This document shows, piece by piece, positions 7,366 to 31,049 of a stretch of DNA of 59,089 nt. Source of the DNA: an uncultured Anaerolineales bacterium. GTDB lineage: Bacteria > Chloroflexota > Anaerolineae > Anaerolineales > Villigracilaceae. Where the stretch lies: assembly GCA_949319575.1 (NCBI GenBank), contig CASGHD010000170.1:1-59089 (forward strand), given 5' to 3'. The first letter of the stretch is position 1. Each line of letters opens with the position of its first letter. The notes under the pieces are model-generated. The model was not told the origin of the DNA. It did not search any database and was given only the letters and a program-made list of their open reading frames with translations. The translations under genes and the position numbers were made by a program.

Positions 7366-7388
7366 CTTCTCATTTTCGCCTCTGATTG

Positions 7389-7421
7389 ACCCACCAGGCA
7401 GACCCGGCTTGGTGGGTTTTT
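7389..7421 (+). terminator. terminator after metG
   Basis: Eight-base-pair stem ACCCACCA / TGGTGGGT with a 13-nt loop followed by a T-run at 7417-7421, 24 nt after the metG stop codon. Confidence 0.85.
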
Positions 7422-7602
7422 CGTTTCCCCGCACCACTTACGCAGTTGGGGGGCAGTTGTGCTACCGCCTCATAGTGCGCCTTAAACGAAACAGGCTCAA
7501 CCGAGCAACTCCTACCCTTGTAACCTTTTGCCTGTCACCAATAAGTAACAGAGTTGTTAGCGAGCCGTCATGCGGGCAACTTAACACCCTTGAAAGGTAA
7601 AG

Positions 7603-10600: not shown

Positions 10601-11955
10601 GGTTATCGGGAATCGATTCCTGCGCGGCAAATGTTCTGCTCAACACGGAAGGCGCGGGGCAATCTGCCACCGGCGCGTGCGCCGACCTTGCGGGGAATGT
10701 AAGCGCCCCGGCAACCGCCAGCGGCATCAACATCGACAAGACCGACCCGTCCTTAAGCCTGCCAGCCAACATTGTGGTTGAAGCCACCGGCGCGTCCGGC
10801 GCAGTGGTGAACTATTCCGCATCTGCCAACGACAACCTCGACCCCGCGCCAACCTTTGGCTGTTCTCCAAGTTCCGGCGCCACCTTCCCAATCGGAGTCA
10901 CCACAATCTCCTGCGCCGCCACCGACCAGGCAGATAATTCAAGCGCCGGCAGTTTCACCGTCACCGTGCAGGATACAACCGCTCCGACTCTATCCTTACC
11001 CGCCAACATGACAGTCGAGGCGACCAGCGCCGCCGGCGCGACGGTAACTTTCACCGCCACTGCGAATGACATTGTGGATGGCGCACTGACCGTCACATGC
11101 GCCCCGGCTTCCGGCAGCACCTTCGGAATTGCCGCCACACTCGTGAACTGCTCGACATCCGATTCGAGCGGAAACACGGTCAGCGGAAGTTTCAACGTGA
11201 CCGTGCAAGATACAACTCCGCCAGTCATTTCGCCGATGGCGAATATGGTAGTGGATACATCCAGCAAACAACTCGCGCCGGTCTTTTATTCGACACCCAC
11301 AACCACCGACGCTGTGGATGGTCCCGGCGTAGCAACATGCGCTCCCGCCTCTGGCGCCCTGCTCCCGCACGGCACAACCATCGTCACCTGTACCGCAACC
11401 GACAGCCACGGCAACACTTCGTCTATTACCTTCGCTGTCCTCGTGGAGTATGAAGCCAAGCCCTTCACAGAAAATAACGGATCGTCCGGATTCATCCTCG
11501 TCACCGGCGGCAACTCCTTCGACCTGGATTGCGCAACGAAGGCAAATTTCTTCGGCATCACGCTCAAGTTCTATAACCTGTGCGACTATCAGGCTATCAT
11601 CAATGTGGTCGAGACAAACTCCCTGCCTGGGGCATTGCCGAACGGCTATACCCTCATCAAAGGACTCGATGTGTCGATCCTCAACGGAGGCAAACTCATC
11701 AAGCCGCTCCCGCAAAACACCGGCATCCAGATGGGCTTCCCCCTCCCCGCAGGCGACGCCTCGCAATATATCGTCTTACATTGGAACAACGGACAATGGG
11801 AAGAGATCGCCCAACCGCTCAGCGATGCCGCTATAGACAACGCCCTGGCAACCGACGCGCTGGTTGAACTGTACTCCCTAACCTCCTCCAACAATAGCTC
11901 AGCGCAAGTATTGACCACCGACCTGACGGGCATATTCGTTCTCGTAAAAAAATAA
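7603..11955 (+). CDS. large secreted Ig/HYR-repeat protein
   Basis: 1450 residues from a GTG start. An N-terminal signal peptide (LILSVFLILTVLANLV, cleavage near ALA-DD at about 34) leads into a Pro/Thr/Glu-rich linker to about 105. Residues about 190-560 are short Asn/Gly/Ser-rich repeats (NSGNVTLTGIDV type) typical of a right-handed beta-helix. Six Ig-like repeats of about 78 residues start near 580, 657, 737, 811, 890 and 967 (core GWNNSDVTVTF, then a GIN-IDKTAPT linker). Three HYR-type repeats start near 1045, 1125 and 1204 (SLPANIVVEAT). The last 165 residues form a unique domain. It is probably a cell-surface or adhesive protein; no enzyme motif, LPXTG or PEP-CTERM anchor is seen. A hairpin repeat follows the stop. 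Confidence 0.85.
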   Translation: MKKMPHINRRLILSVFLILTVLANLVNVNIALADDTTPTPPPTEEPTQPPVESTELPVEPTATQLPEATPTAEPTAESTAEPITEETPAATETAPVFELVAELPQNTDVVILDENGNPLPMASTEAAAILVEADPIWCPAAQGVPTPGANGCTTNQTITTLLTLMRDNTGGSFSQDGVIYLERPGGAGFTTPLILSDNASSLGSSFASISSFNMTIQGGWNGNNPGAITGDTNFGTSGLNRGFVQVGSSGNPWTGNVTLRDITVNDNTSASNPSVAVYTSTGSVTMTDVDVNNADNSASVQVVTNSGNVTLGGVDITDGDDNHGINVTTNSGTVNINNSSADNQDDGNAIHVTSNSGNVNLTGIDVDNSGDGNAVNITTTNGNIALSDTDVSNQQDGFTGNLVSSSGNITVSGGSAFDGDNTGGDTNQGFAATTSTGAITISNATFNDAYGIGTGTNYNGATLSAPIVTLNSVTATNNDLNGIAISNVNQVTLNNVTAWNNGTDVPGGTGGGAFSNDFGSGVRINGNPGSFVSILDGIYFGNQRYGIEVFGTSVFIGSSIDLCQVSLASGGCMNVTPITDTTAPTIAFVSRTSANVFGWNNSDVTVTWSCADAQSGVVSATVTQTLASEGTNQSATGTCANRAGLSASDTQTGINIDKTAPTITFLSRLPAANGNGWNSADVTITWSCTNSLSPILSGTVTQTLTAEGAAQSATGMCQDQAGNTASNTQSGINIDKTAPTGVSLVPSGTLGNNGWYTSNVTITTTGTEAVSGPLTCTGVQSLTTDTASATFNGSCTNLAGFTSNAAPLTLKRDATNPTITFLNRTPANGNGWNNGDVTLNWSCTDAMSGPVDGTITQTATAEGANQSSTATCFDNAGNSASDTQSGINIDKTAPGIVANRTPAANANGWNNSDVTVTFTGNDGLSGLVSCTTPVVFSAEGAGQSATGTCADNAGNSSSATVNNINIDKTAPTATATASPASNSNGWNNTDVTVTFTGVDGLSGIDSCAANVLLNTEGAGQSATGACADLAGNVSAPATASGINIDKTDPSLSLPANIVVEATGASGAVVNYSASANDNLDPAPTFGCSPSSGATFPIGVTTISCAATDQADNSSAGSFTVTVQDTTAPTLSLPANMTVEATSAAGATVTFTATANDIVDGALTVTCAPASGSTFGIAATLVNCSTSDSSGNTVSGSFNVTVQDTTPPVISPMANMVVDTSSKQLAPVFYSTPTTTDAVDGPGVATCAPASGALLPHGTTIVTCTATDSHGNTSSITFAVLVEYEAKPFTENNGSSGFILVTGGNSFDLDCATKANFFGITLKFYNLCDYQAIINVVETNSLPGALPNGYTLIKGLDVSILNGGKLIKPLPQNTGIQMGFPLPAGDASQYIVLHWNNGQWEEIAQPLSDAAIDNALATDALVELYSLTSSNNSSAQVLTTDLTGIFVLVKK

Positions 11956-11973
11956 GAGGGAAAGAGCGATACA

Positions 11974-12005
11974 ATTCGAGGGACGGCGATCGCCGTCCCT
12001 CGAAT
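11974..12005. terminator. perfect 32-bp palindrome, possible terminator
   Basis: Perfect 16+16-bp palindrome, arms ATTCGAGGGACGGCGA and its complement, 19 nt after the stop of the large secreted protein. The extruded form would be very stable, but there is no good T-run, so termination is only possible, not certain. Confidence 0.5.
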
Positions 12006-12028
12006 ACTTTAAAGTCAAGGAGAACGCC

Positions 12029-12493
12029 ATGCTCCGACTCAACCCCCGCATCCTTCCCATTTTCGTTTTGATCCTCAACTCTTGCGCTACCGCATCCCCA
12101 GCCGCGCCGAGCGCAACCATAGATCCGTGCTTCCCCGAAGCAATCAGCGAAACTGTCAAACCCATCAACAACCTGATGCGTGAATTTGACGATGCCTCGG
12201 CGCTGTCATCCAACCTTCCGATCGAACAACTCCCCGAGGCGATCTCAAACCTCCAACGCATCCGGCGGCTCGCGCAGGATATCAACCCGCCAGCCTGCCT
12301 GACGGCATTGCACGGGTACGAACTCGCGCACATGAACGCGGTCATCGACACCCTGCTCGCCTTCCTCAACGGCGCGGACACTTCCACCCTCAATCAGGGA
12401 TTGAATCTGGCGCGCGAGCAACACGATCTATATTCAGTGGAATTGGCGCGCGTGCTGGGACTCACACTCGTGCCGGCTACGGCATCACCCTGA
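12029..12493 (+). CDS. small lipoprotein, unknown function
   Basis: 154-residue protein with a short lipoprotein signal peptide: basic N-terminus, ILPIFVLIL and a lipobox LNSC with the lipid-acceptor Cys at residue 19. The mature part is mostly helical, with two Cys (near residues 35 and 90) that could form a disulfide. AAGGAG precedes the ATG. I recognise no family. It converges on the MFS gene, with their stops about 6 bp apart. Confidence 0.7.
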   Translation: MLRLNPRILPIFVLILNSCATASPAAPSATIDPCFPEAISETVKPINNLMREFDDASALSSNLPIEQLPEAISNLQRIRRLAQDINPPACLTALHGYELAHMNAVIDTLLAFLNGADTSTLNQGLNLAREQHDLYSVELARVLGLTLVPATASP

Positions 12494-12499
12494 TCTACG

Positions 12500-13732
12500 C
12501 TATCGAACATCCTTTTTCAGGAACAACAAAAAACCCAAAAGGCGAATTACTGCGCTCACCCATAACGCCCCTGAAAGCCCAACGAACCCAGCCAGCCATG
12601 TTCCCAATAACGGGGCGAGGATCATGGAAAGATATTGGATCGACTGCGCCAACGAAACGAATGTCGCGCTGTATTCCACAGGGACGGTTTTCATCAGCTC
12701 GTCAAAAAATACTAGGTCAAGCCCGCCTTGAAAGAACCCGGCAATCCCCGCGAAGAGGATGATCAACTCCACGTGGGTGGTTGAAGCGGTGAGCGCCGGG
12801 TGAAGGATCATCCCGAAGGTGGTCGCCAGCAATACCACGCGCCCGCCATGACGGTTGGATACGCGGGGCCACAAATAATATCCCGCCAGCATCACCAGGT
12901 TCATCGCCATGCTCACCATGCCAATATCCGAATCGGTGGCTTGCACTTCGCGCACCAGATACAACGGCATGATCGGCAGGCTGAGCGCCACAGCCGAAAA
13001 ATAGACGAAACGCTTCGAGGCAAACGAGACAAAAGCCGGATTCTTCCTCAGCAATGCGGCGTAATTTTTCAAGGTATCGCGCAACGACTCGCTCTTCGCC
13101 AACGGAGCCGGGGGCTGGTCTTGAACGGCGATGCGGCTGGAAAAATAGTAACTGAGGAAACCTCCCAATGAAAGGATGAGGAACATCACCGCATAGTTCA
13201 ACGGAAAGTCCATCAGGTCGATGAGGCGCGTGACGATGAATGTGCCGATCACGCTGGTCAAACCGAAGATCGCCCAACGCCGGCTGAGCAGGGCATAACG
13301 ACCTTCGGGACCCGCTACGGCATTCATCACCACCGAGAACGCCACCGCCAGCGCGGTCTGCGGAAGAGTGGCGAACGCCCAGATCGCCAGCGTGGACAGG
13401 ATGACATATTCGCGTGAAATGAGCAGGGTGAGGATGCCGGTCAGCGCAAAACACAGGATCACCAGCAGGCGCGAAAGGCTGTACCACGGCACGATATTCC
13501 GCCGCGTTTGCAAAAAGCGACCCACGAAAAGGGCAAGCAATAACCCGGTCGCGCCGGGCATGGAGGAGAGCAAGCCCACCTGGAAATTTGACGCGCCGAG
13601 GCGGGTGAGAAAGACCGGCAGGAATGGCGACGCCACATTCGAGATACTCACACCCACCGCGTCGATCTGAACGTAGCGGAAGTTCCTCTTTTGAGTTTCT
13701 ACTTCTTCTTCGGTGATCGGGGTCATGGACAT
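12500..13732 (-). CDS. MFS transporter
   Basis: 410-residue major facilitator superfamily permease with about 12 predicted membrane helices and an MFS-type loop after helix 2 (FVGRFLQTRRNIVPW). The substrate is unknown; drug or sugar efflux are both possible. The start at 13732 lies 4 nt after a -10 hexamer read on the minus strand; a second in-frame ATG at 13726 sits 10 nt after it. The message is therefore leaderless or has a leader of only a few nucleotides. Confidence 0.88.
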   Translation of the reverse strand: MSMTPITEEEVETQKRNFRYVQIDAVGVSISNVASPFLPVFLTRLGASNFQVGLLSSMPGATGLLLALFVGRFLQTRRNIVPWYSLSRLLVILCFALTGILTLLISREYVILSTLAIWAFATLPQTALAVAFSVVMNAVAGPEGRYALLSRRWAIFGLTSVIGTFIVTRLIDLMDFPLNYAVMFLILSLGGFLSYYFSSRIAVQDQPPAPLAKSESLRDTLKNYAALLRKNPAFVSFASKRFVYFSAVALSLPIMPLYLVREVQATDSDIGMVSMAMNLVMLAGYYLWPRVSNRHGGRVVLLATTFGMILHPALTASTTHVELIILFAGIAGFFQGGLDLVFFDELMKTVPVEYSATFVSLAQSIQYLSMILAPLLGTWLAGFVGLSGALWVSAVIRLLGFLLFLKKDVR

Positions 13733-13736
13733 GCCG

Positions 13737-13744
13737 ATTATAAT
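13737..13744. promoter_or_regulatory. shared back-to-back -10 palindrome
   Basis: ATTATAAT is its own reverse complement over all eight bases, so it contains TATAAT on the plus strand (13739-13744, for the GNAT gene) and on the minus strand (13742-13737, for the MFS gene). The two divergent promoters cannot be occupied at the same time. Confidence 0.5.
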
Positions 13745-13767
13745 GCCGCAGGAGAATCCGCCGCCTG

Positions 13768-14259
13768 ATGATTCACGTTCGCCCTATCAAGCTACATGAG
13801 TGGAACCCTGCCAAGCGGCTGGTGTACCGCGTCGCGCATGAGGTTTTCAAAGACACAAGACCATTGGCAGAAGCGATTGCCGAACACGAAGCGCGCGGCG
13901 AACTCAGCGACATGGACGATATTCAAAATAGTTATGTTGAAAGCGGCGGGATATTTCTCGTGATGGTGAATGGCGACAAAATCATTTGCACAGGCGCGAT
14001 CCGCCGTTATGCGGAGGGCGTTTGTGAACTTAAACGGCTATGGCTATTACAGGAACACCAAGGGAAAGGGTTGGGATATCGCATGATCCAGGAACTGCTC
14101 ACCTTTGCCAAAGAGGCGGGCTATCAGCGCATCGTGCTTGAAACAGACCCTATCCATCAGAAACGCGCCATTGAGTTTTACAAGGGACTTGGGTTTTATG
14201 AAATCCTGATTCCCAATGCGCGCCCTGAAGAGGATATTCAGATGGAAATGATTCTATAG
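13768..14259 (+). CDS. GNAT family N-acetyltransferase
   Basis: 163-residue acetyl-CoA-dependent acyltransferase. The acetyl-CoA loop is visible as EHQGKGLGYRMI near residues 93-104, followed by the LETDPIHQKRAIEFYKGLGF helix-strand typical of the GNAT C-terminus. The substrate is unknown. AGGAG at 13750 lies about 13 nt from the ATG, longer than usual, and the likely transcript starts close to it. The gene is divergent from the MFS gene. Confidence 0.88.
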   Translation: MIHVRPIKLHEWNPAKRLVYRVAHEVFKDTRPLAEAIAEHEARGELSDMDDIQNSYVESGGIFLVMVNGDKIICTGAIRRYAEGVCELKRLWLLQEHQGKGLGYRMIQELLTFAKEAGYQRIVLETDPIHQKRAIEFYKGLGFYEILIPNARPEEDIQMEMIL

Positions 14260-14289
14260 CTTCATCTTACACAGAATGCGCTCCCGCAG

Positions 14290-14344
14290 GGTCTGTGATC
14301 CTTCGGTGGTGATCTGCATAATACGGCGGTCACAGACCGCCTTT
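14290..14344. terminator. competing hairpins between convergent genes
   Basis: GGCGGTC / GACCGCC (14325-14341, 3-nt loop, TTT after) forms a compact terminator-like hairpin. An alternative pairing uses GGTCTGTGA at 14290-14298 with TCACAGACC at 14330-14338, and the two cannot form together. The site lies between the convergent GNAT and nucleosidase genes and could terminate both. Confidence 0.55.
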
Positions 14345-14368
14345 AAGCGTAGCTGCATAAGGAGAGTT

Positions 14369-15043
14369 CTATAGCTGTACTGCATTTAACCACCCGGGCA
14401 GTTGAGCAACCAACTTCCGCATGATCTTTTTCGCGCGCTCGTTGAAAATTTCGATGTTGTCGTACGCTTCGCCTTCCCGTTCATTGACAATATCGCTGAC
14501 AGCGCGCAGGATGAGCAGGCGCGTGTTATTTTTCCGCGCCACCCACGCCAGCGCGGCTGATTCCCAATCGGCGGCGACAGCGTCCCTGGATTTGAGCGAG
14601 GGAATCTTTCCCGGCGGCAGGTCGCTGTCGGCGGAGGCGATGGTGGCGCGTCGGGCGGGATAAGGCAGGGGGTTGGCGAGCCAGCTCACATCGAGGGAAG
14701 AGGCGTAGTAGTTGGCGATGTCGAGGTCGCCCATCAATTCCACAATATCATAGACGATCGTCTGTTCGACCAGGATCACATCGCCTTGATTCACAACTCC
14801 TTCAAATCCGCCGCAGGTGCCGAGGTTGACGATCAGGTCGGGAGCATAACGGTCAATGAGGTACTGCATCGTTCCCGCAGAGGCGATCTTTCCCCACCCG
14901 CTGTGAAAAAATTGAATCTCGCGCCCGGCAAGCCTGGCAGTGAAACATTCGCCGTACGGAAATGACTCGATCTTTGAATCGGGAAACAACGGCTTGACGC
15001 CCACCCATTCGGCAATGGCAGAGATGACGACAACGATATTCAA
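14369..15043 (-). CDS. MTA/SAH nucleosidase-like protein
   Basis: 224-residue member of the purine nucleoside phosphorylase/5'-methylthioadenosine nucleosidase fold. Diagnostic segments: the N-terminal strand with SAIAEW, GWGKIASAG, the base/ribose loop VNLGTCGGF, DWESAALAWVA carrying the acidic ribose ligand, and RAVSDI near the C-terminus. It probably cleaves the glycosidic bond of an adenosine derivative; the exact substrate is uncertain. The start is TTG, supported by AGGAG at 15054-15050 with a 6-nt spacer. It lies 17 bp behind the DUF4380-like gene and is probably co-transcribed with it. Confidence 0.85.
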   Translation of the reverse strand: MNIVVVISAIAEWVGVKPLFPDSKIESFPYGECFTARLAGREIQFFHSGWGKIASAGTMQYLIDRYAPDLIVNLGTCGGFEGVVNQGDVILVEQTIVYDIVELMGDLDIANYYASSLDVSWLANPLPYPARRATIASADSDLPPGKIPSLKSRDAVAADWESAALAWVARKNNTRLLILRAVSDIVNEREGEAYDNIEIFNERAKKIMRKLVAQLPGWLNAVQL

Positions 15044-19837: not shown

Positions 19838-19869
19838 GGTAGACATGTAAACACGTAGACAAGTAAACA
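19838..19869 (+). repeat. four tandem 8-mers (GTAGACA type)
   Basis: GGTAGACA, TGTAAACA, CGTAGACA and AGTAAACA in perfect register, between the LysM protein and the FAD-subunit gene. The same unit type recurs inside the xdh coding sequence at 25516-25547 and 27484-27515. Confidence 0.75.
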
Positions 19870-19903
19870 CGTCGTCGTCGAAAAGCGGCGGCGTGTTTGA
19901 TTG

Positions 19904-19930: not shown

Positions 19931-20668
19931 ATGATCACTGCCTATCATCGCCCCAAAACATTGGATGAAGCCCTCGCGCTTCTGACTCAACCAGACACGC
20001 GCCCCCTCGGAGGCGGCACGCTTCTTTCGCAGGGGAAATCTGACTCAGTCCATGCGGTTGACCTCCAACTCCTCGGCTTGGATTCGCTCCGCGTCAACGG
20101 CAACGCTCTCGAACTCGGCGCGACTCTCACACTGCAAACACTCCTCGAATCGGAACACTGCCCCGAAGCATTGAAGCGCGCATTGAAACTCGAAGCGCCG
20201 TTGAATATTCGCAACTCGGCAACTGTCGCTGGGACGTTAGTTTCATGCGATGGTAGGTCTACGTTTGCAACCGTGTTGCTGGCGTTTGATGCGAAGATCA
20301 CAGTGATAAGTAATCAGTCATCAGTGATCAGCCTCGGTGAATTTTTACCTCTCCGCCCACGCGGACTGATTACATCCATCACATTTCCTCTCAACCTCAA
20401 ACTCGCTTTTGAATATGTATCACGCACGCCAGCGGATAAACCAATCGTATGCGTTGCTTTGGCGCAGTGGAATTCAGGCAGAACACGACTCGCAGTCGGC
20501 GGCTACGGCAAAAGTCCCATGCTCGCGATGGACGGCACAGCCTCCGACGATGTGGCAACCGCCGCGCGCAACGCCTTCCACGAAGCGACGGATGATTACG
20601 GTAGCGCCGAATATCGCATGGACGTCGCATCCACGCTGGCGAAGAGATGTTTGGGGTCTGTAAATTAA
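19931..20668 (+). CDS. xanthine dehydrogenase-type FAD subunit
   Basis: 245-residue FAD-binding middle subunit of a molybdenum hydroxylase (CoxM/XdhB family), which carries electrons from the iron-sulfur centre to an acceptor. FAD-binding segments are RPLGGGTLLSQG near residue 36 and NIRNSATVAGTLVSC near 95. It is shorter than the usual 280-300. Its Mo partner is 4.3 kb downstream, separated by toxin-antitoxin-like modules. The C-terminus (LGSVN) differs from the remnant copy at 21521 (LENIRTG), so the end of this gene may have been rewritten by insertion. A 7-mer array at 20297-20331 is read in frame. Confidence 0.85.
   Translation: MITAYHRPKTLDEALALLTQPDTRPLGGGTLLSQGKSDSVHAVDLQLLGLDSLRVNGNALELGATLTLQTLLESEHCPEALKRALKLEAPLNIRNSATVAGTLVSCDGRSTFATVLLAFDAKITVISNQSSVISLGEFLPLRPRGLITSITFPLNLKLAFEYVSRTPADKPIVCVALAQWNSGRTRLAVGGYGKSPMLAMDGTASDDVATAARNAFHEATDDYGSAEYRMDVASTLAKRCLGSVN
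20297..20331 (+). repeat. four tandem 7-mers inside the FAD-subunit gene
   Basis: CAGTGAT, AAGTAAT, CAGTCAT, CAGTGAT and then CAG, in register from 20301. They are translated as ITVISNQSSVIS within the FAD subunit, so the array is in frame and part of the protein. The type resembles heptanucleotide STRR repeats known from cyanobacteria. Confidence 0.75.
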
Positions 20669-20733: not shown

Positions 20734-20804
20734 CAACAAGGAAATTATATTTTTACGGACCTTTAGCAAATCTTTAGGCTATAGCACAGCCCAAACACGG
20801 CGAC

Positions 20805-20838
20805 TTGCATTTTCCAGCTTTGTCTTGTAAAATTTACA
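20805..20838 (+). promoter_or_regulatory. promoter with operator of the AbrB/PIN module
   Basis: TTGCAT at 20805-20810, a 17-nt spacer and TAAAAT at 20828-20833. Overlapping the -10 is the perfect inverted repeat TGTAAA-A-TTTACA (20826-20838), a good candidate operator for autoregulation by the AbrB-type antitoxin. Confidence 0.65.
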
Positions 20839-20862
20839 TGCGTCTTACACGATGGAGGTCGC

Positions 20863-21105
20863 ATGACAATGGAAACAATCGTTTCGCGGCGCGGGCAAAC
20901 AGTCGTCCCTGCGGCGATTCGCGCCAAGTACAACATCAAAGACGGGGATCAGTTGGTCTGGGTGGACGACGGCCAAACCATCCGGGTAATTCCGGTGCCT
21001 TCCGATCCGGTTGCGGCTTTATATGGGCGCGGCAAGGGACAAGGATTAACGCGCAAACTCATGGAAGACCGCGCAAAGTATAGGAAGAAAGAAAATGGCA
21101 GGTAA
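20863..21105 (+). CDS. AbrB/MazE-type antitoxin
   Basis: 80-residue swapped-hairpin DNA-binding protein. The N-terminus VSRRGQTVVPAAIRAKYNIKDGDQLVWVDDG is the classic SpoVT/AbrB fold; I quote only its shape here: strand-loop-helix-strand up to about residue 40. The C-terminal half is charged and would bind the toxin. GGAGG lies 4 nt before the ATG; a second ATG 6 nt later is possible. Its end overlaps the PIN toxin start by 11 bp. The role is to neutralise the toxin and repress the shared promoter through the palindrome at 20826. Confidence 0.85.
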   Translation: MTMETIVSRRGQTVVPAAIRAKYNIKDGDQLVWVDDGQTIRVIPVPSDPVAALYGRGKGQGLTRKLMEDRAKYRKKENGR

Positions 21106-21499
21106 GCCGTTTGTGCTGGACACCTCGGCGCTGATGACGCTCGTTGAAAAAGAGGAAGGCGCGGAACGAGTGCGCGACGTTCTTCTGAAGCAGACGATCA
21201 TCATCCCGTGGCTCTCAATTCTGGAAATTGTTTATATCTCGCGGCGCGAACTGGGAGAGGACGAAGCGCTTACCCGCTACGCCCTGATGAAAAGGCTCGA
21301 CGCCAAGATTATTTGGAATGCAGACGAGGCGCTTCTGCTCAACGCCGCCCGAATCAAATCCACTCACAGCCTGTCGCTTGCAGATTCGGTCATTGCCGCA
21401 ATTGCCGCTCAACACAAAGCCATACTTCTGCATAAAGACCCTGAGTTTGAACCTCTGCAAGATGTGGTTGAAACGGAAGCGTTACCGTACAAAAAATAA
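21095..21499 (+). CDS. PIN-domain ribonuclease toxin (VapC type)
   Basis: 134-residue PIN-domain protein. Four acidic active-site positions are visible: LDTSALM (Asp near residue 8), SILEIVY (Glu near 43), SLADSVIA (Asp near 98) and HKDPEFE (Asp near 116). Length and order match VapC toxins, which cut tRNA or rRNA. It overlaps the AbrB antitoxin by 11 bp as an operon. It belongs to the first of three modules inserted between the xdh FAD and Mo genes. Confidence 0.88.
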   Translation: MAGKPFVLDTSALMTLVEKEEGAERVRDVLLKQTIIIPWLSILEIVYISRRELGEDEALTRYALMKRLDAKIIWNADEALLLNAARIKSTHSLSLADSVIAAIAAQHKAILLHKDPEFEPLQDVVETEALPYKK

Positions 21500-21520
21500 A
21501 TTGCCAGGCATCCTTCCGTA

Positions 21521-21631
21521 GAACGCAACGCCTTTCACACGGCGACAGATGATTTCGGCTCCGCGGAATATCGCATGGACGTTCCGCCCACGCTGGCGAA
21601 GAGATGTTTGGAAAACATTCGCACAGGATGA
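21521..21631 (+). pseudogene. remnant of an xdh FAD-subunit 3' end
   Basis: A 36-codon stretch translates as RNAFHTATDDFGSAEYRMDV followed by PPTLAKRCL and LENIRTG-stop. Over its first 29 residues it matches 25 of the last residues of the FAD subunit encoded at 19931-20668. No start or upstream part is present. It looks like the tail of another xdhB copy left at the downstream border of the AbrB/PIN module. Confidence 0.8.
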
Positions 21632-21652
21632 CGAGCACAAAAGGCAAAGAGC

Positions 21653-22165
21653 ATGACTTCCACTTTTCAGGTCACTGAAGACCAACTGGTTTCGGAACTT
21701 TGGGCGCGGGATGTTCCCTTTTTGCTTGGGGAACAAATCAGCCCCGCTCCTCTACTCGATCCTACGACTCTCATTCAATCCCTGGCGCAGAGCAAGGATG
21801 CGCGCGTTCGAATGGCATTGATACCTTTATTCCTGCGGCATCCTGAATTCTCTGGTGAAGCAAGGAATGCGGACGAAACAATGCCAGCGCAATCGAGCCA
21901 GCTAGTCCTTCGCTTTTACTACACAGCCGCTTCTCTCCTGCAACAAAAATATCGAGAACAATTGGTCAAACTCTACGGGAATCAAAAACGATTGCCTGAT
22001 TTATTTTCCAACAAACTAGGCGTCTCGTTAAATGACGACCCAAATAAGCTTCTCCTCAAACTGGCAAAGCGCCACCAAGTCCTAAGCGGACAACGCATCA
22101 ACTGGCTTGAATCGTACGAACACAGCGCCGAGCGACTCATCAAGTATGTGGAAAAATTCAAATGA
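21653..22165 (+). CDS. hypothetical partner of the DUF6036 protein
   Basis: 170-residue soluble, mostly helical protein with no family I recognise. It has no membrane segment and no obvious catalytic motif. Its last 4 bp overlap the start of the DUF6036 nucleotidyltransferase-like gene (ATGA), so the pair is translationally coupled, as in two-gene toxin-antitoxin operons. It probably serves as the cognate partner (antitoxin or target-binding subunit). It sits between two xdhB remnants. Confidence 0.6.
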   Translation: MTSTFQVTEDQLVSELWARDVPFLLGEQISPAPLLDPTTLIQSLAQSKDARVRMALIPLFLRHPEFSGEARNADETMPAQSSQLVLRFYYTAASLLQQKYREQLVKLYGNQKRLPDLFSNKLGVSLNDDPNKLLLKLAKRHQVLSGQRINWLESYEHSAERLIKYVEKFK

Positions 22166-22683
22166 AACCAATATCTCGGCGGTCCATTCAAGATTTTTTC
22201 GAACGTCTGGGAAAACGCTACCCCAAACAGGCGGCGCTTCATCTGATTGGCGGCAGCGCATTGATTCTCCTCGGAAGCGCGCGCGAGACTCTCGACATTG
22301 ATTATGTCGGGGATGACATTCAAAAGAACGACTTTCAAATAGTCATTGATGAGGTCGCGCGTGAACTGGGACTTGATACGGAACCTGTCCCCATCGAACG
22401 ATTCATACCATTGCCAAAGGGCAGCGAACATCGCAGCGTCCGCATTGGTCAATTTGGAAATGTCAGCATTTTCATTTTTGATCCATATAGCATAGCGCTC
22501 AGCAAACTCGATAGAGGCAGCGACCGGGATTTGGACGATCTTGTTTTTCTGGTCGAGCGCCGCCATATAGACGCGGAAGAACTCGAACGAATCTTGAACG
22601 ACGCCCTTCCTCATGCGGGCAAATTCGATTTCAATCCCGATATCCTGGCTCATCTTCAAGAACTGAAGAATCGATTGATATAA
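22162..22683 (+). CDS. DUF6036-type nucleotidyltransferase
   Basis: 173-residue protein with a minimal nucleotidyltransferase core: LIGGSALILLGS near residue 28 (GGSA turn) and TLDIDYV near 44 (the DxD-like acidic pair). The C-terminal region is the helical DLDDLVFLVERRHID type seen in DUF6036 and AbiEii relatives. The catalytic third Asp is not obvious. As the second gene of a coupled pair it is a candidate toxin acting by nucleotidylation of tRNA or protein, by analogy with AbiEii and MenT. Confidence 0.7.
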   Translation: MKPISRRSIQDFFERLGKRYPKQAALHLIGGSALILLGSARETLDIDYVGDDIQKNDFQIVIDEVARELGLDTEPVPIERFIPLPKGSEHRSVRIGQFGNVSIFIFDPYSIALSKLDRGSDRDLDDLVFLVERRHIDAEELERILNDALPHAGKFDFNPDILAHLQELKNRLI

Positions 22684-22700
22684 AATCACTTGATCGCAAC

Positions 22701-22739
22701 TTCGCATCCGCGGCGACGAAGAGATGCTGGCAAACGTGA
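22701..22739 (+). pseudogene. short second xdhB tail remnant
   Basis: A 12-codon stretch, FASAATKRCWQT-stop, lines up with the FAD-subunit tail (VASTLAKRCLGSVN). At DNA level GCATCC...CGAAGAGATG is shared, about 21 of 28 bases. It lies just after the DUF6036 gene, the same position that the longer remnant occupies after the AbrB/PIN module. The match is short and could be chance. Confidence 0.4.
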
Positions 22740-22751
22740 AAGGAAACTACC

Positions 22752-22952
22752 ATGACCGAAGAACAAAAACCTCCCGTGCCTGAAATCAAGAAATCTCCTC
22801 CAAATGGAAGCGGGTTCGCCATGGGTCTCGCCCTCGGACTCGCGCTCGGCGTGGCATTGGACAATATCGGGGCGGGAGTCGCGCTGGGCGTTGTCTTTGG
22901 CGCGGCATTCAACGAAGCGCTGAAGCGAAAGGACCAGAATAACAAATCGTAA
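22752..22952 (+). CDS. small glycine-zipper-like membrane protein
   Basis: 66-residue protein. A Pro/Lys-rich N-terminus (residues 1-17) is followed by about 35 residues of Gly/Ala/Leu repeats (GLALGLALGVAL and GVALGVVFGAAF) spaced four apart, like a glycine zipper membrane segment, then a charged C-terminus. AAAGGA precedes the ATG. Function is unknown; no partner is evident. Confidence 0.6.
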   Translation: MTEEQKPPVPEIKKSPPNGSGFAMGLALGLALGVALDNIGAGVALGVVFGAAFNEALKRKDQNNKS

Positions 22953-22994
22953 GCCGACTTCACTCAATCAGATTCCGCGTAGCGATTGCCTCAC

Positions 22995-23243
22995 ATGACC
23001 GCCATCCCCTCCTCCCTCGCCCCATTCTTTCAGGAATACGATATCGCTAAACTTGTCCCTGAAAAGGATTCGCATACCATCATCGAGCGCGTCTTGCAAT
23101 TCGGCAACCGCGCTGAGATCAAATGGCTGTTCACGGTCTATTCACAGGAGCAGATCATTTTATGGATCAACCGATTCGGCAATGAGAGGCTCCCCCAACC
23201 TCATCTCAACTTCTGGAAACTCGTTTTAGGCTCTGAAAAATGA
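22995..23243 (+). CDS. DUF6922-like antitoxin candidate
   Basis: 82-residue soluble protein. The pattern FFQEYDIAKL, IIERVLQFGN and IKWLFTVY resembles DUF6922, short proteins that are commonly found directly upstream of AbiEii-type nucleotidyltransferases. It overlaps the downstream gene by 4 bp. A TTG start at 22986 is also in frame, but ATG at 22995 is preferred. It probably acts as the antitoxin of the pair. Confidence 0.65.
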   Translation: MTAIPSSLAPFFQEYDIAKLVPEKDSHTIIERVLQFGNRAEIKWLFTVYSQEQIILWINRFGNERLPQPHLNFWKLVLGSEK

Positions 23244-23884
23244 CGGTGTTATATTGGGATACTGTTACAGAAGACATGCGCGTGGTATTGCGCGAGTTCT
23301 TCCACAGCAAAATCGGAAACCGTTTTTATCTCGCGGGCGGCACTGCGCTTTCGCTTCAACTGGGACACCGCCGATCTGTTGACCTCGACCTCTTCTCCCC
23401 GACCGAAGATATCCCTTCCATACGCGCCAGCCTGGAAGAGTCGCTCTCCGCGCTGAAACCTGAATTATCAGACGCGTCATGGGGAAATCTGGTTTTTATT
23501 GCAAACAATGTTCGCGTCGGGTTCTTCGGGTACGGATACGCTCTGTTAAATCCGCTGGTGCGGGATGAAAATCTCCGCCTTGCCTCCATCGAAGATATTG
23601 CCATGATGAAAATGGATGCTTTGCTTTCAAGGGCAAACCGCAAAGATTTTTATGATCTCTATTTTATTTCGCAGAAAGTTCCCCTGAAAAGTTTGCTCGA
23701 TCTTGCTCCAAAAAAATATCCGTCCGTTCGCGATTTCGAAGTCCAGGTTACAAAACGCCTGGTTTATTTCGAGAGCGCCGAGCATGATCCTGATCCGATA
23801 CTTTTACAACCTGTGTCATGGGATGCCGTGAAGAATTACTTTGCAGAACAAGCCAGGCAGATCGAACAGAGTTGGTTGAAATGA
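23240..23884 (+). CDS. AbiEii-type nucleotidyltransferase toxin
   Basis: 214-residue member of the AbiEii/AbiGii toxin family. The signature is FYLAGGTALSLQLGHRRSVD followed directly by LDLF (residues about 31-54), with the later IEDIAMMKMDALLSRANRKD helix and FYDLYFI near 145. Known relatives (AbiE, MenT) transfer nucleotides to tRNA and give phage resistance by abortive infection. The upstream DUF6922-like gene overlaps by 4 bp, and the following methyltransferase also starts in a 4-bp overlap, so three genes form one coupled unit. Confidence 0.82.
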   Translation: MTVLYWDTVTEDMRVVLREFFHSKIGNRFYLAGGTALSLQLGHRRSVDLDLFSPTEDIPSIRASLEESLSALKPELSDASWGNLVFIANNVRVGFFGYGYALLNPLVRDENLRLASIEDIAMMKMDALLSRANRKDFYDLYFISQKVPLKSLLDLAPKKYPSVRDFEVQVTKRLVYFESAEHDPDPILLQPVSWDAVKNYFAEQARQIEQSWLK

Positions 23885-24948
23885 CTCTCCCTCTCAACCA
23901 AATCCTGCGCGGCGACTGCATCGAAGTCCTCGACTCGCTCCCCGCCAACTCGGTGGATGTGATCTTCGCCGACCCGCCGTATAATCTGCAACTCCGCAAC
24001 GAGCTATATCGTCCCAACATGTCGAAAGTGGATGCAGTGAACGATGGATGGGATCAATTCGAGAATTTCAAGGAGTACGATGTGTTCACGCGCAAGTGGC
24101 TGAGCGCCAGTCAACGCGCGTTGAAAGATACTGGCACCATTTGGGTCATCGGCACTTATCACAACATCTATCGCGTCGGCGCGATCATGCAAGATTTAGG
24201 CTTCTGGATTCTCAACGACATCTTGTGGATCAAAAATAATCCGATGCCGAATTTTCGCGGCGTGCGTTTTACCAACGCGCACGAGACCATCATTTGGGCG
24301 CAAAAGAAAAAAGGCGCGAAGTACACGTTCAATCATCAATCCACGAAAGCGTTGAACGACGATCTGCAAATGCGCTCCGATTGGGCGTTGCCGCTTGTGA
24401 CGGGCAAACAGCGGATCAAGTCTAACGGGATCAAAGCGCACTCGACTCAAAAGCCCGAAGCGCTGCTCTATCGGATTCTTCTCGCGTCGTCGAATGTCGG
24501 GGATGTGATCCTCGATCCGTTCTTTGGCTCAGGGACAACTGGCGCGGTTGCGAAAAAATTGGGTCGCCACTGGATCGGGATCGAGCGCGAGGAAAAATAC
24601 ATCCGCGTGGCGCAGAAACGAATCGACGCGGTCACGCCCTCCCCTGCCGAGGCGTTGACACTGTCCGAGAAACGGAAGCAGGCGCGGGTCCCGTTTGGCG
24701 CGTTGCTTGAAAACGGATTATTGAATCCAGGCGAGTCGCTTTATTTTGCGAACAACGGCAAGCGGGCGAAAATCCTATCGAATGGGCACATCAAATGCGG
24801 CGATGTCACTGCATCCATTCACGGCGTAGCGAAATCGCTGATGAACGGCGCGCCCGTCAACGGCTGGGATGTGTGGTTTTACAAAGACGCAAATGGGAAT
24901 AAAATTGTGATTGACGAACTTCGGAAACAGTTCAAGGTCAAAGGTTGA
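23881..24948 (+). CDS. CcrM-like adenine DNA methyltransferase with RAMA domain
   Basis: 355-residue beta-class amino-methyltransferase. Motif IV DPPYNL is near residue 31 and motif I DPFFGSGTTGAVAKK near 213, in the permuted order of that class. Residues about 270-355 form a RAMA domain (LLENGLLNPGESLYF, SIHGVAKSLM, NGWDVWFY) as in CcrM, which methylates GANTC. There is no restriction partner, so it is an orphan. I start at ATG 23881 (ATGA overlap with the AbiEii gene) rather than the longer upstream frame. The end runs into a 7-mer palindrome. Confidence 0.85.
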   Translation: MTLPLNQILRGDCIEVLDSLPANSVDVIFADPPYNLQLRNELYRPNMSKVDAVNDGWDQFENFKEYDVFTRKWLSASQRALKDTGTIWVIGTYHNIYRVGAIMQDLGFWILNDILWIKNNPMPNFRGVRFTNAHETIIWAQKKKGAKYTFNHQSTKALNDDLQMRSDWALPLVTGKQRIKSNGIKAHSTQKPEALLYRILLASSNVGDVILDPFFGSGTTGAVAKKLGRHWIGIEREEKYIRVAQKRIDAVTPSPAEALTLSEKRKQARVPFGALLENGLLNPGESLYFANNGKRAKILSNGHIKCGDVTASIHGVAKSLMNGAPVNGWDVWFYKDANGNKIVIDELRKQFKVKG

Positions 24949-25002
24949 AGGTCTAAGGTCGTAATTCCAACTAATGACTTTTGACCTGTGACCTTCGACC
25001 TT
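24934..25002. repeat. palindrome of 4 + 4 heptamers
   Basis: AAGGTCA, AAGGTTG, AAGGTCT, AAGGTCG (24934-24961), a 13-nt loop, then TGACTTT, TGACCTG, TGACCTT, CGACCTT (24975-25002). The second half is the inverse of the first, unit by unit. It begins inside the last codons of the methyltransferase (FKVKG-stop) and ends 19 nt before the xdh Mo gene. Confidence 0.8.
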
Positions 25003-25021: not shown

Positions 25022-28000
25022 ATGAACATCACCCTCACCATCAACTCAAACAAACATGAAATCGAATGTGCGCCATCTGAAACATTGCTTTCCACCGTTC
25101 GCAGGCTTGGATATTTCGGAGTCAAGTTTGGCGATGAACAAGGATTGAGCGGCGCGGACACGGTTCTACTGGACGGCAAGCCTGTCAACGCGGGGTCCAT
25201 GCTCGCCGCGCAAGCCGAGGGGCATAACGTCGTCACGATTGAGGCGTTGGGCGAACATCCAGATCAAGGCTGGAAAAAGACCGATGGACTGAATCCGCTT
25301 CAACAGGCGTTTGTCGAATCGGGCGCGATCCAATGCGGATTTTGCACGCCCGCGCAAATTCTCGCGGCGAAGGCGTTGCTCGAAAAAAATTCAAACCCGA
25401 GTGAAGAGCAAGTGCGTGAAGCAATTGCTGGCGTGTTGTGCCGATGCACGGGCTATCTCAAACCTGTGCAAGCCGTGTTGAAAGCCGCGGCGGTGATGCG
25501 AGGGGAAGGCACACAAGTAGACAGGGAAACAAGTACACAAGTAAAAATGGATTCGAGCGGGCATGGCGGCGATTCACCTGTGTACGTGTCTCCGTTTTTA
25601 CCTGTTTCCGAGACTCTCGTTCAAACGAATATCATGCCGCGCGTGATCGTCACTCCTCAAACAGAAACCTACCAGACCGTCGGCAAGCCCGAGAAAAAAG
25701 TGGACGCGGTCAAACTCGTGCAGGGCAAACCCGCCTTCACCGCCGATATGGACGCGCGCGGCATGTTGTATGCAAAGGTGTTGCACTCGCCGCACGCGCA
25801 CGCGCGCATCAAAAAGATTGACACGAGTAAGGCGAAAGAATTGAAGGGCGTCGCGGCGGTGTTAACGTATCAGGATATTCCGCGTGTGGTGTATTCCACT
25901 GCGGGGCAGTCCGATCCGATTCCAGGTCCGCTGGATACATTTTCTTTGGATCATAAAGTGAGATTCGTCGGTGATCGCGTTGCATTCGTCGCGGCGGAGA
26001 GTCCTGAAATCGCGGAGAAAGCATTGAGCCTGATTGACGTGGAATATGAAATTCTGGATTCCATCCTCGACTCACGCCAAGCAATGGATGCAAATGCGAT
26101 TCGAATCCACGATGAGCCTGAGTACGTGGACTTCGGCGACTCCAACGCTGACAAGAATCTCGCCGCGCACATCCGCATTGACATCGGCGATGTGGAAAAA
26201 GGATTTGCCGAAGCGGACGAAATCTTCGAAGCCGAATATGAGGTGCCGAAAGTTCAACAGGTTTCCATCGAGCCGCATGTGTGCGTCACGTATTGGGATG
26301 AAGATGACCGCCTCGTGATTCGCACATCCACGCAGGTTCCATTCCATGTGCGGAGAATGCTCGCGCCTGTGTTGAATTTGCCTGTCAAACGAATCCGCGT
26401 GATCAAGCCGCGCATCGGCGGCGGATTTGGCGGCAAGCAGGAAGTGTTGATGGAAGACGTCCCCGCGCACCTCACGATTGCAACAAAGCGACCCGTCATC
26501 TACGAATATACACGTGAAGAGGAATTTATCGCGGCGCGGTCACGTCACCCAATGCGAGTCAAGATGAAGACGGGCGTGAAGCGAGATGGGACGATTACCG
26601 CCAACGCGATGTACGCGTTGTCCGACACAGGCGCGTACGGTTGCCACGCGCTCACTGTCACGGGCAACACGGGTCACAAGGCGATGGCGTTGTATGTCGG
26701 CGATGGTGAATATCGCCAGAGTCCGAACATCCAATTTTATGCAGACGTGGTGTACACCAACACGCCGCCCGCTGGAGCGTTCCGCGGCTACGGCGTGCCA
26801 CAGGGATATTGGCCCGTCGAACGTCACATGGAAAAGATCGCCCGCGCGTTGAACCTCGACCCGATTGATTTCCGTTTGAAGAACGCAATCCATGCAGGTG
26901 AATATCATCCATTTTCAAAGGCGTGGAATGAAGGACGCGAGCCGCGACCCGAGATCATCCAAACCGTTGGGCTGGAACAATGTGTGGCGCAAGGCAGAGC
27001 CGCGATTGCATGGGATGATAAATATGGGAATGAAGAATGGCGCAACCCAGTATCAAGTTCCAAGTTTCAAGTGTCAGGTGACAGACCCAAAACTTGGAAC
27101 TTGAAACCTGAAACTTCAATGATAGCAAAGCGCAGGGGTATTGGAGTCGCGTTCGTTATGCAAGGAACCGCAATCCCGTATTTAGATATGGGCGGCGCGT
27201 CCATCAAGATGAACGACGATGGCTCGTTTAATCTTCTCGTCGGCGCAACGGATTTGGGCACAGGTTCGGATACAGTCCTCGCGCAAATGGCGGCGGAGGT
27301 GTTGGGAGTTCCGCTTGAAGATATGATCTGCTATTCCTCAGACACAGATTTCACCCCGTTTGACAAAGGCGCGTATGCTTCATCAACAACATACATCTCT
27401 GGCGCGGCGGCGGTGAAAGCGGCGAATATCGTTGCGGAAAGAATCAAAGTCCGCGCGGCGATGATGTTGAATGCGGGAGAGCAAGTAGACACGGAGACAA
27501 GTACACAGGTATACAAGGCGGAGGAGATTCGTCTTGAAAATAGATTGGCGATTGCATTAGACGGAAAAACAGTTTCGTTTACTGAAATTGCCTTGCACTC
27601 GCTCCATAAGGATCAGCAAGAGCAGATCATGGGCGTGGCAAGTTATGTTTCTCCTGTGTCGCCGCCTCCGTTCGCGGCGCAATTCGCGGAAGTCACTGTG
27701 GACACCGAAACGGGACAGGTCACAGTGGACAAACTCGTCATGGCGGTTGATTCGGGCGTGATTGTGAATCCGCTCACCGCCTCGGGACAGATCGAAGGCG
27801 GGATGACTCAAGCGCTGGGCTATGCCGTCTGCGAGGAGATGCGCTACGATGAAAACGGCGACGCCATCGAACGCGACTTAGATCGTTATCACATCTTCCG
27901 CGCCGACGAGATGCCCGAACTCGAAACGATCTTCGTCGAGACGTTCGAGCCGAGTCATCCATTCGGCGTCAAAGCCGTCGCCGAGATTCCCATGGACGGG

Positions 28001-28132
28001 GTCGCGCCTGCCGTTGGCAACGCCATCCTCGATGCCATCGGCGTGGACGTGGATGAAATCCCAACGACGCCTGAACGAGTGTGGCGGGCGATGAAGGCTC
28101 CTGAGTCCCCTCTCCCTTTGGGAGAGGGTTAG
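25022..28132 (+). CDS. fused [2Fe-2S]-molybdopterin hydroxylase subunit
   Basis: 1036-residue fusion of the iron-sulfur small subunit (residues 1-160) and the Moco large subunit (about 220-1030) of a xanthine dehydrogenase-type enzyme. The second [2Fe-2S] site is intact: C105, C108, C140, C142. The plant-type site is not: at the canonical spacing x4, x2, x11 the residues are D38, S43, D46 and G58. The large subunit keeps GGGFGGKQ, AFRGYGVPQ, DLGTGSDT and a likely catalytic Glu in AEIP near residue 980. AAGGAG lies 6 nt before the ATG. Three small repeat arrays are read in frame, one in the domain linker. The true substrate is unknown. Confidence 0.88.
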   Translation: MNITLTINSNKHEIECAPSETLLSTVRRLGYFGVKFGDEQGLSGADTVLLDGKPVNAGSMLAAQAEGHNVVTIEALGEHPDQGWKKTDGLNPLQQAFVESGAIQCGFCTPAQILAAKALLEKNSNPSEEQVREAIAGVLCRCTGYLKPVQAVLKAAAVMRGEGTQVDRETSTQVKMDSSGHGGDSPVYVSPFLPVSETLVQTNIMPRVIVTPQTETYQTVGKPEKKVDAVKLVQGKPAFTADMDARGMLYAKVLHSPHAHARIKKIDTSKAKELKGVAAVLTYQDIPRVVYSTAGQSDPIPGPLDTFSLDHKVRFVGDRVAFVAAESPEIAEKALSLIDVEYEILDSILDSRQAMDANAIRIHDEPEYVDFGDSNADKNLAAHIRIDIGDVEKGFAEADEIFEAEYEVPKVQQVSIEPHVCVTYWDEDDRLVIRTSTQVPFHVRRMLAPVLNLPVKRIRVIKPRIGGGFGGKQEVLMEDVPAHLTIATKRPVIYEYTREEEFIAARSRHPMRVKMKTGVKRDGTITANAMYALSDTGAYGCHALTVTGNTGHKAMALYVGDGEYRQSPNIQFYADVVYTNTPPAGAFRGYGVPQGYWPVERHMEKIARALNLDPIDFRLKNAIHAGEYHPFSKAWNEGREPRPEIIQTVGLEQCVAQGRAAIAWDDKYGNEEWRNPVSSSKFQVSGDRPKTWNLKPETSMIAKRRGIGVAFVMQGTAIPYLDMGGASIKMNDDGSFNLLVGATDLGTGSDTVLAQMAAEVLGVPLEDMICYSSDTDFTPFDKGAYASSTTYISGAAAVKAANIVAERIKVRAAMMLNAGEQVDTETSTQVYKAEEIRLENRLAIALDGKTVSFTEIALHSLHKDQQEQIMGVASYVSPVSPPPFAAQFAEVTVDTETGQVTVDKLVMAVDSGVIVNPLTASGQIEGGMTQALGYAVCEEMRYDENGDAIERDLDRYHIFRADEMPELETIFVETFEPSHPFGVKAVAEIPMDGVAPAVGNAILDAIGVDVDEIPTTPERVWRAMKAPESPLPLGEG
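25516..25610. repeat. palindrome of 4 + 4 octamers, in frame
   Basis: AGTAGACA, GGGAAACA, AGTACACA, AGTAAAAA (25516-25547), then after 31 nt TGTGTACG, TGTCTCCG, TTTTTACC, TGTTTCCG (25579-25610), the inverse type. It is translated as part of the linker between the iron-sulfur domain and the Mo domain (for example QVDRETSTQVKM). Confidence 0.75.
27054..27118. repeat. palindrome of 4 + 4 heptamers, in frame
   Basis: CAAGTTC, CAAGTTT, CAAGTGT, CAGGTGA (27054-27081), a 9-nt loop, then AACTTGG, AACTTGA, AACCTGA, AACTTCA (27091-27118). It is translated as KFQVSGDRPKTWNLKPETSM within the Mo subunit, between conserved blocks. Confidence 0.8.
27484..27515 (+). repeat. four tandem 8-mers, in frame
   Basis: AGTAGACA, CGGAGACA, AGTACACA and GGTATACA, translated as QVDTETSTQVYK in the Mo subunit. 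The peptide is nearly the same as that from 25516-25547 because both arrays are read in the same frame. Confidence 0.75.
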
Positions 28133-29888: not shown

Positions 29889-30261
29889 ACTAAAGTCTTG
29901 GATTGCGCAATCTGAAGAAGATTTCACAGCCGCTAAAACGCTTTTTAGACACAGAAAACCGTTGCTATCAGGAGCATGTTTTCATGCGCAACAGAGCGCG
30001 GAGAAATATCTCAAAGCATTATTGATTTTCAAGGATAAAGATTTTCCAAAAACTCACGACCTGCCTGCTTTGAATACCATGCGCAATAAAGCGGGAATTA
30101 TTACTGGTCTCGACCTGCAACAATTGGTTGATCTAACCGAATATGCGGTGCGACGACGATATCCCGGCAATCAACCAACCCAAGTAGAGGCGAAGGATGC
30201 AATCCAAACCGCGGAGACAGTCAGGCGGTTTGCTCGGTCATTTCTTGGGCTGAAAAAGTGA
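29872..30261 (+). CDS. HEPN-domain protein (toxin candidate)
   Basis: 129-residue all-helical HEPN protein. The segment SGACFHAQQSAEKYLKALLI near residues 24-45 is characteristic of this HEPN group, and an acidic loop and basic RRRYPGN near 100 follow. A clear Rx4-6H RNase motif is not obvious, so RNase activity is inferred from family. It is coupled to the MNT gene upstream and to xdhC downstream (GTGA overlap), so this module has been spliced into the operon cleanly. Confidence 0.82.
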   Translation: MTDINELKSWIAQSEEDFTAAKTLFRHRKPLLSGACFHAQQSAEKYLKALLIFKDKDFPKTHDLPALNTMRNKAGIITGLDLQQLVDLTEYAVRRRYPGNQPTQVEAKDAIQTAETVRRFARSFLGLKK

Positions 30262-31049
30262 ATTCAATCTTCCAAGCCCTCGTTGAACTTCAAACAAAAA
30301 ACGAATCCGCCGCGCTTTGCACGGTGACCAAAAGCGAAGGCTCGACTCCGCGCCATGTGGGGAGCAAGATGCTCGTGTACCCGGATGGCAAATTCATCGG
30401 CACGGTCGGCGGCGGGGATTTGGAACACCGCGTCCTCGATGAGGCGTGGATGGCGATCAGCGACGGCAAGCCGCGCGCGCTTGTGTACAACCTTGTTAAT
30501 CCGAAGCGCGGCGATCCCGGCGTATGCGGTGGAACTGTGGAGGTGTTTGTGGAACCGATTCTTCCTCCCGCGATGATCGTCGTCATCGGCGGCGGGCATG
30601 TGGGCAAGGCTGTTGTGCATCTTGCCAAGTGGCTGGGATTCAGAGTCGCGGTCAGCGATGATCGCGCGGAGTTTTGCAATCCCGAATCCGTGCCGGGGGC
30701 GGACGCGTATTACCCAGTTCCAATGGCGGAGTTGCCGAGTCAACTCAAAGTGACGCGCCAAACTTTCCTAGTGGTAACCAGCCGTGGATCCGGAGTCGAC
30801 GCGGCAGGTTTGCCTCCGCTTCTTGAATCGAAGGCGGCTTACGTTGGCGTCATCGGCTCCAAACGAAGATGGCTGACAACCGTCAAGGCGTTGAAAGAAA
30901 AAGGCGTGTCCGATGAATTGATCGCGCGCGCGCATTCGCCGATGGGAATCGAGTTGAACGCCGAAACGCCGGAAGAGATCGCGGTGAGCATCATGGCGGA
31001 AATTTTGATGTTGCGCGATAAGGGGACGGGGAAGATGATGAAAGGTTGA
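30258..31049 (+). CDS. XdhC family molybdenum-hydroxylase maturation factor
   Basis: 263-residue XdhC/CoxI protein, which binds the molybdenum cofactor and delivers it, after sulfuration, to xanthine dehydrogenase-type enzymes. The N-terminal domain has CTVTKSEGSTPRHVGSKML and TVGGGDLEH; the C-terminal Rossmann domain has MIVVIGGGHVGKAV and GVIGSKRRW. The start is GTG at 30258 in a GTGA overlap with the HEPN gene. A bidirectional terminator follows. It supports assignment of the split xdh genes as a working Mo enzyme. Confidence 0.9.
   Translation: MNSIFQALVELQTKNESAALCTVTKSEGSTPRHVGSKMLVYPDGKFIGTVGGGDLEHRVLDEAWMAISDGKPRALVYNLVNPKRGDPGVCGGTVEVFVEPILPPAMIVVIGGGHVGKAVVHLAKWLGFRVAVSDDRAEFCNPESVPGADAYYPVPMAELPSQLKVTRQTFLVVTSRGSGVDAAGLPPLLESKAAYVGVIGSKRRWLTTVKALKEKGVSDELIARAHSPMGIELNAETPEEIAVSIMAEILMLRDKGTGKMMKG

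Follow-up and report, generated by a model that had tools for sequence, protein, structure and literature searches.

An XdhD-like molybdenum enzyme of Anaerolineales lacking the four Cys of the plant-type [2Fe-2S] site, and apparent recurrent loss of cluster sites among its relatives

The stretch of DNA analysed here (the window) comprises 59,089 nucleotides of contig CASGHD010000170.1 from an uncultured Anaerolineales bacterium. It contains, on the forward strand, an ORF (25022..28132) preceded by AAGGAG and coding for a 1036-residue protein that, judged from its TIGR03313 and Pfam matches (Fer2_2, Ald_Xan_dh_C, MoCoBD_1, and MoCoBD_2), can be classed as XdhD-like, with the iron–sulfur and molybdenum (Mo) parts fused. 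The best NCBIfam match, TIGR03313 (Se_sel_red_Mo), which we take to be the Escherichia coli XdhD/YgfN type, scored 674.5 bits, below the cut-off of 1101.9, which was passed by none of 400 genomes of the phylum. A preliminary description had treated the gene as encoding a small xdh subunit; the product is instead the fused polypeptide, and the FAD subunit is encoded separately, 4.4 kb upstream, by a YgfM-like gene (19931..20668, forward strand; TIGR03312 best match, 75.9 bits, cut-off 241.5). An XdhC-type Moco maturation factor (30258..31049, forward strand; profile matches) is also encoded in the window. The interval between the FAD and enzyme genes (20800–24950) is occupied by a DNA methylase with a RAMA domain (23818–24948) and by several ORFs that, as an impression only, look like toxin–antitoxin or defence genes. 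The nearest named relatives of the protein are from metagenome-assembled genomes of Anaerolineales and Chloroflexota, and the other Mo subunits found in the window's genome are at most 34% identical to it.

The Mo-binding domains are shared with xanthine dehydrogenase and 4-hydroxybenzoyl-CoA reductase, both of which have two intact [2Fe-2S] clusters, unlike the window protein, where only the second site retains four Cys. Gln473, Arg588, and Glu988 (27983..27985, forward strand) are presumably the active-site Gln, Arg, and catalytic Glu of the xanthine oxidase family; in an alignment of 178 proteins (described below) the Gln is present in all rows, and the Glu in 174, the remainder being three gaps and one X. 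The Arg is present in 177 rows, whereas E. coli XdhD has Gln at this position. Glu637 (26930..26932, forward strand) aligns with Glu606 of E. coli XdhD, which is proposed in PMC12507026 to orient urate and is described there as missing from E. coli XdhA. The equivalent Glu was invariant in 19 of 19 aligned rows, and then in 178 of 178 in the larger sample.

The plant-type ferredoxin-like domain (residues 1–78; 25022..25255, forward strand; delineated by alignment and model) carries no cluster ligands, and no Fer2 Pfam match was found in the enzyme at E 0.001. At the exact C-x4-C-x2-C-x11-C spacing, the four ligand positions are occupied by Asp38 (GAT, 25133–25135), Ser43 (AGC, 25148–25150), Asp46 (GAC, 25157–25159), and Gly58 (GGG, 25193..25195), all on the forward strand and read as KFG-D38-EQGL-S43-GA-D46-TVLLDGKPVNA-G58. 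Cys105, Cys108, Cys140, and Cys142 of the second site (25334..25447, forward strand) are all intact. Translation and codons thus confirm both the four replacements and the intact second site as initially described; the accompanying interpretation held in part, in that the outer relay has lost its binding site, whereas fold and second site are preserved. The homologue search that the preliminary description had proposed returned a clade sharing the substitutions. In this clade (41 rows, the window included), Asp38, Ser/Thr43, and Asp46 are found in 41 of 41 rows, and position 58 is Gly in 37, Ala in two, Asn in one, and Val in one. The inner site is CCCC in 38 rows; the three others are devoid of it as well, so that an outer-then-inner order of loss appears to be visible within the clade.

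Because the substitutions are held throughout the 41 rows, they are not a sequencing error. The dN/dS values of residues 1–78 against 12 relatives were 0.058–0.130 in six, 0.222 in one, and saturated in five, with dS exceeding 1 in many of the pairs, and those of the Mo part were 0.043–0.079 where unsaturated. The N-terminal domain evolves somewhat faster than the Mo part, yet is clearly constrained. With D-[ST]-D in every row of the clade and low dN/dS in the unsaturated pairs, a sequencing error or a decaying pseudogene, the latter having been named at the outset as a possible refutation, is ruled out for practical purposes; nothing spoke in favour of either. An AlphaFold2 model of the window protein (pLDDT, 81.8; pTM, 0.85; residues 1–80, pLDDT, 82–93) has eleven N-terminal secondary-structure elements, in an order identical to that in the model of a relative devoid of both sites (pLDDT, 82.9; pTM, 0.86). 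In a Foldseek search, the PDB entry that the window model resembled most was Desulfovibrio gigas aldehyde oxidoreductase (PDB ID: 1SIJ; TM, 0.78/0.88; identity, 26%), which is likewise a single chain with iron–sulfur domains followed by Mo domains; unlike the window system, it has both clusters and no FAD subunit.

For a wider comparison, 120 stretches chosen by hand from a longer list, 80 loci of relatives, and that of E. coli were assembled (201 loci); eight partial loci were dropped, and the remaining 193 plus the window (194) were reduced to 178 by removal of near-copies. The fractions that follow describe this sample, not nature, and outside Chloroflexota it is limited to E. coli and a single Symbiobacteriaceae row. 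Both sites are present in 86 of the 178 proteins, only the outer in five, only the inner in 50, and neither in 37; the outer site is hence absent in 87, of which 37 have no inner site either. The five with the outer site alone (L107–L111) form one clade of opposite loss, in which the inner ligands are replaced by SESE or SDSE. E. coli K-12 XdhD, with D-A-D-S at the outer and S-N-S-D at the inner positions, has none of the eight ligands; its entry (L061, 9317–12187) is annotated as including the Fe-S binding subunit, yet is without all eight Cys. On a FastTree tree of the Mo domain (178 rows), 11 outer changes (seven forced by starred branches) and seven inner changes were counted, and IQ-TREE with 70 chosen rows gave 10 outer (six forced) and six inner changes. 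We read these changes as losses, since members of the wider xanthine oxidase family normally have all eight Cys. The outer, the inner, or both sites thus appear to have been lost repeatedly among the sampled relatives. The initial description had missed both this recurrence across the XdhD-like family, E. coli XdhD included, and the fact that the loss may extend to both clusters or, in one clade, be confined to the inner one. In the textbook xanthine oxidase chain, electrons are relayed between Mo, two [2Fe-2S] clusters, and FAD; given the repeated loss of one or both sites in sampled relatives, this route probably does not apply throughout the family.

The replacements themselves recur. Eleven loss groups were drawn by hand from the tree, and some of them may not be independent (in the IQ-TREE result, B and C are joined, and L173 stands apart from A); the commonest residue is Asp at position 38 in nine of them, Asp at 46 in eight, and Ser/Thr at 43 in nine. 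Asp accounts for 3.6% of the residues of the N-terminal domain, and a Cys-to-Asp replacement requires two base changes. Two neighbouring positions, Phe36 (25127–25129) and Leu42 (25145–25147, both forward strand), often change with the loss. At position 36, 64 of the 91 outer-intact rows have His and all 41 of the window's clade have Phe, which is also the commonest residue there in eight of the eleven loss groups; since three of the 91 outer-intact rows already have it, Phe36 can precede the loss. Position 42, Glu in 70 of the 91 outer-intact rows, is Leu/Met in groups A, B, E, F, and H, Phe in E. coli, and Ala/Thr in J, while Glu is kept in C, D, G, and most of K. A single origin of all Asp-type outer sites was rejected by AU tests that covered 25 Asp-type rows among 70 hand-chosen of the 178, with the Mo-domain columns (p = 3.3e-64) and also with those of the N-domain once the motifs were left out (p = 0.0025). 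Of the three Mo-domain groups, two also form clades in the unconstrained N-domain tree (supports, 22 and 81), and the third was not rejected (p = 0.664); the N-domain and Mo-domain groupings agree where compared. A very short motif may nevertheless have been transferred between lineages. The family retains its Mo site while cluster sites vanish repeatedly, often with identical replacements, and these natural variants make the electron route to Mo directly testable.

Two carboxylates and one hydroxyl occupy ligand positions in every one of the clade's 41 rows, and other loss groups show the same set, which raises the question of whether the D-x4-[ST]-x2-D motif is a binding site for a different metal, with either a structural or a redox role, as the preliminary description had also suggested. 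This site would, however, provide three oxygen donors only, position 58 being mostly Gly, and the set is broken by Ala at 43 in E. coli and by Ser or Ala at 46 in groups D, J, and K; we regard a metal-binding role as very unlikely.

With regard to the electron partner, the fetched loci with a FAD gene close to that of the enzyme number 24 of 32 for the outer-lost state, 30 of 54 for the canonical, none of five for the inner-lost (the L107–L111 stretches), and 12 of 28 for the both-lost, in counts made on flanks of differing length. The 24 outer-lost loci speak against a loss of the FAD gene together with the outer cluster. A change of FAD-binding motifs tied to the loss was also discarded, because the motifs are modified in canonical relatives too. 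The FAD subunit itself has dN/dS of 0.10–0.19 in seven pairs of the window's group. Alternatively, the N-terminal domain could be a vestige, with another iron–sulfur-bearing subunit, for example a FAD–FeS fusion, supplying both clusters in a larger complex. Such fusions occur in 16 of 54 fully canonical versus one of 32 outer-lost loci, and one is encoded on contig C23 of the window's genome; the latter is followed by a Mo subunit of its own, and this, together with the purifying selection on the window domain, makes a substitute partner improbable.

The gene context was compared at 47 loci, each gene cluster being named from one representative. Nine canonical loci from the same order (L066–L074) all contain the FAD gene, the XdhD gene, XdhC, SsnA, CofC, and a luciferase-family (F420-type) reductase, and NpdG, CofE, and CofD are each found in eight of the nine. 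SsnA is near the enzyme gene only in these nine of the 47 loci, and in none of the other 38, which include 24 from the family of the window and six further canonical loci. The gene set of the nine is the Chloroflexota variant named in PMC12507026. In the window's genome, SsnA and CofE score above their cut-offs on contig C28, a contig other than that of the enzyme gene, together with NpdG, CofD, CofC, and an F420-type reductase; in stretch L252 of this genome, an IS200-type transposase ORF (6943–7446) lies inside the F420 gene run, and a NACHT–HEAT ORF (11679–14792) adjoins SsnA. Of the genes whose linkage marks selenium-dependent Mo hydroxylases, YqeB and YqeC clusters adjoin canonical relatives, and a YqeB-like ORF is present on C23 of the window's genome.

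The closest characterized counterpart is the E. coli XdhD (YgfN)/YgfM pair, which shares with the window system the fused iron–sulfur and Mo parts, the Glu606/Glu637 pair, Asp at Cys positions 1 and 3, and a FAD partner gene; at 39% identity, it differs in having SNSD at the inner site, where the window protein keeps four Cys. According to PMC12507026, E. coli XdhD converts urate to yanthine with NADH, and co-purifies with a ~30 kDa protein taken as YgfM. The main text of that paper does not contain the term '2Fe-2S', and an iron–sulfur passage in it concerns YgfK. In two further papers, ygfN is listed as a Mo-binding subunit (PMC2276186) and xdhD is named as an XDH homologue (PMC2997495). Among the titles listed in a literature search, with most subscription papers outside its reach, none dealt with missing Fe-S ligands in XdhD, and no biochemical work on a Chloroflexota member was found.

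On this evidence, we give about even chances to the following reading. The gene product would be an XdhD-type Mo enzyme, probably a urate dehydroxylase of reductive urate breakdown, an anaerobic pathway that runs in gut bacteria too, and the YgfM-like FAD subunit encoded upstream would be its working partner. Because the outer cluster appears to be lost and the inner kept, a single cluster would carry the electrons between the donor side and Mo. The Asp, Ser/Thr, and Asp side chains may keep the emptied loop in shape, probably by capping backbone amides that once faced the cluster, and a hydrophobic residue at position 42 may help in many lineages. The retained fold, the conserved Asp38, Ser/Thr43, and Asp46, the low dN/dS, the inner site kept in 38 of the 41 rows, the invariant Glu606 equivalent, the SsnA and F420 genes, and the nearby FAD gene with its own low dN/dS are counted in favour; the TIGR03313 score far below its cut-off, the scarcity of SsnA, the faster evolution of the N-terminal domain than of the Mo part, the three inner-lost rows of the clade, and Phe36 in outer-intact rows are counted against. 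In solved relatives, the electron route runs between Mo, the inner cluster, the outer cluster, and FAD, and a direct step between the inner cluster and FAD would be longer than the ~14 Å usually taken as the limit for tunnelling, which also weighs against a single-cluster relay.

Because some members have no cluster site at all, among them the reportedly active E. coli enzyme, the relay may be unneeded. Under this further explanation, Mo would itself be reduced by direct two-electron (hydride) transfer, in a ping-pong manner, from NAD(P)H, F420H2, or a second substrate, so that the dispensable relay was lost in parallel. It would accord with the absence of both sites in 37 of the sampled proteins and in E. 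coli XdhD, with the five rows keeping only the outer site, which alone would be far from Mo, and with the F420 genes adjoining canonical relatives, F420 being a hydride carrier. However, no xanthine oxidase family member is known to accept a cofactor's hydride at Mo; moreover, the FAD gene stays near many outer-lost and both-lost loci and evolves under selection in the group of the window protein, and the inner site is kept in nearly all of the window's clade. The yanthine formation with NADH reported in PMC12507026 is in favour of hydride transfer, but electron entry is placed there at the FAD site in YgfM. We therefore consider hydride transfer unlikely; if true, it would be a chemistry without any relay, new to this enzyme family, with the window enzyme half-way.

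Apart from the cluster sites, heptamer-like repeats, some as inverted pairs (AAGTTTC..GAAACTT and AAGGTCA..TGACCTT), were noticed in the window, in intergenic stretches as well as in frame within the coding sequence of the enzyme (27048–27116, 24930–25001, 25510–25545, 27476–27507, and 19839–19872). The motif count over the whole window was 10 versus a mean of 5.95, not clearly above chance with 8 of 100 shuffles as high, and six of the ten copies fall in one spot. The repeat stretch at residues 676–699 is common only to the window protein and one relative (L041) among 19 aligned rows.
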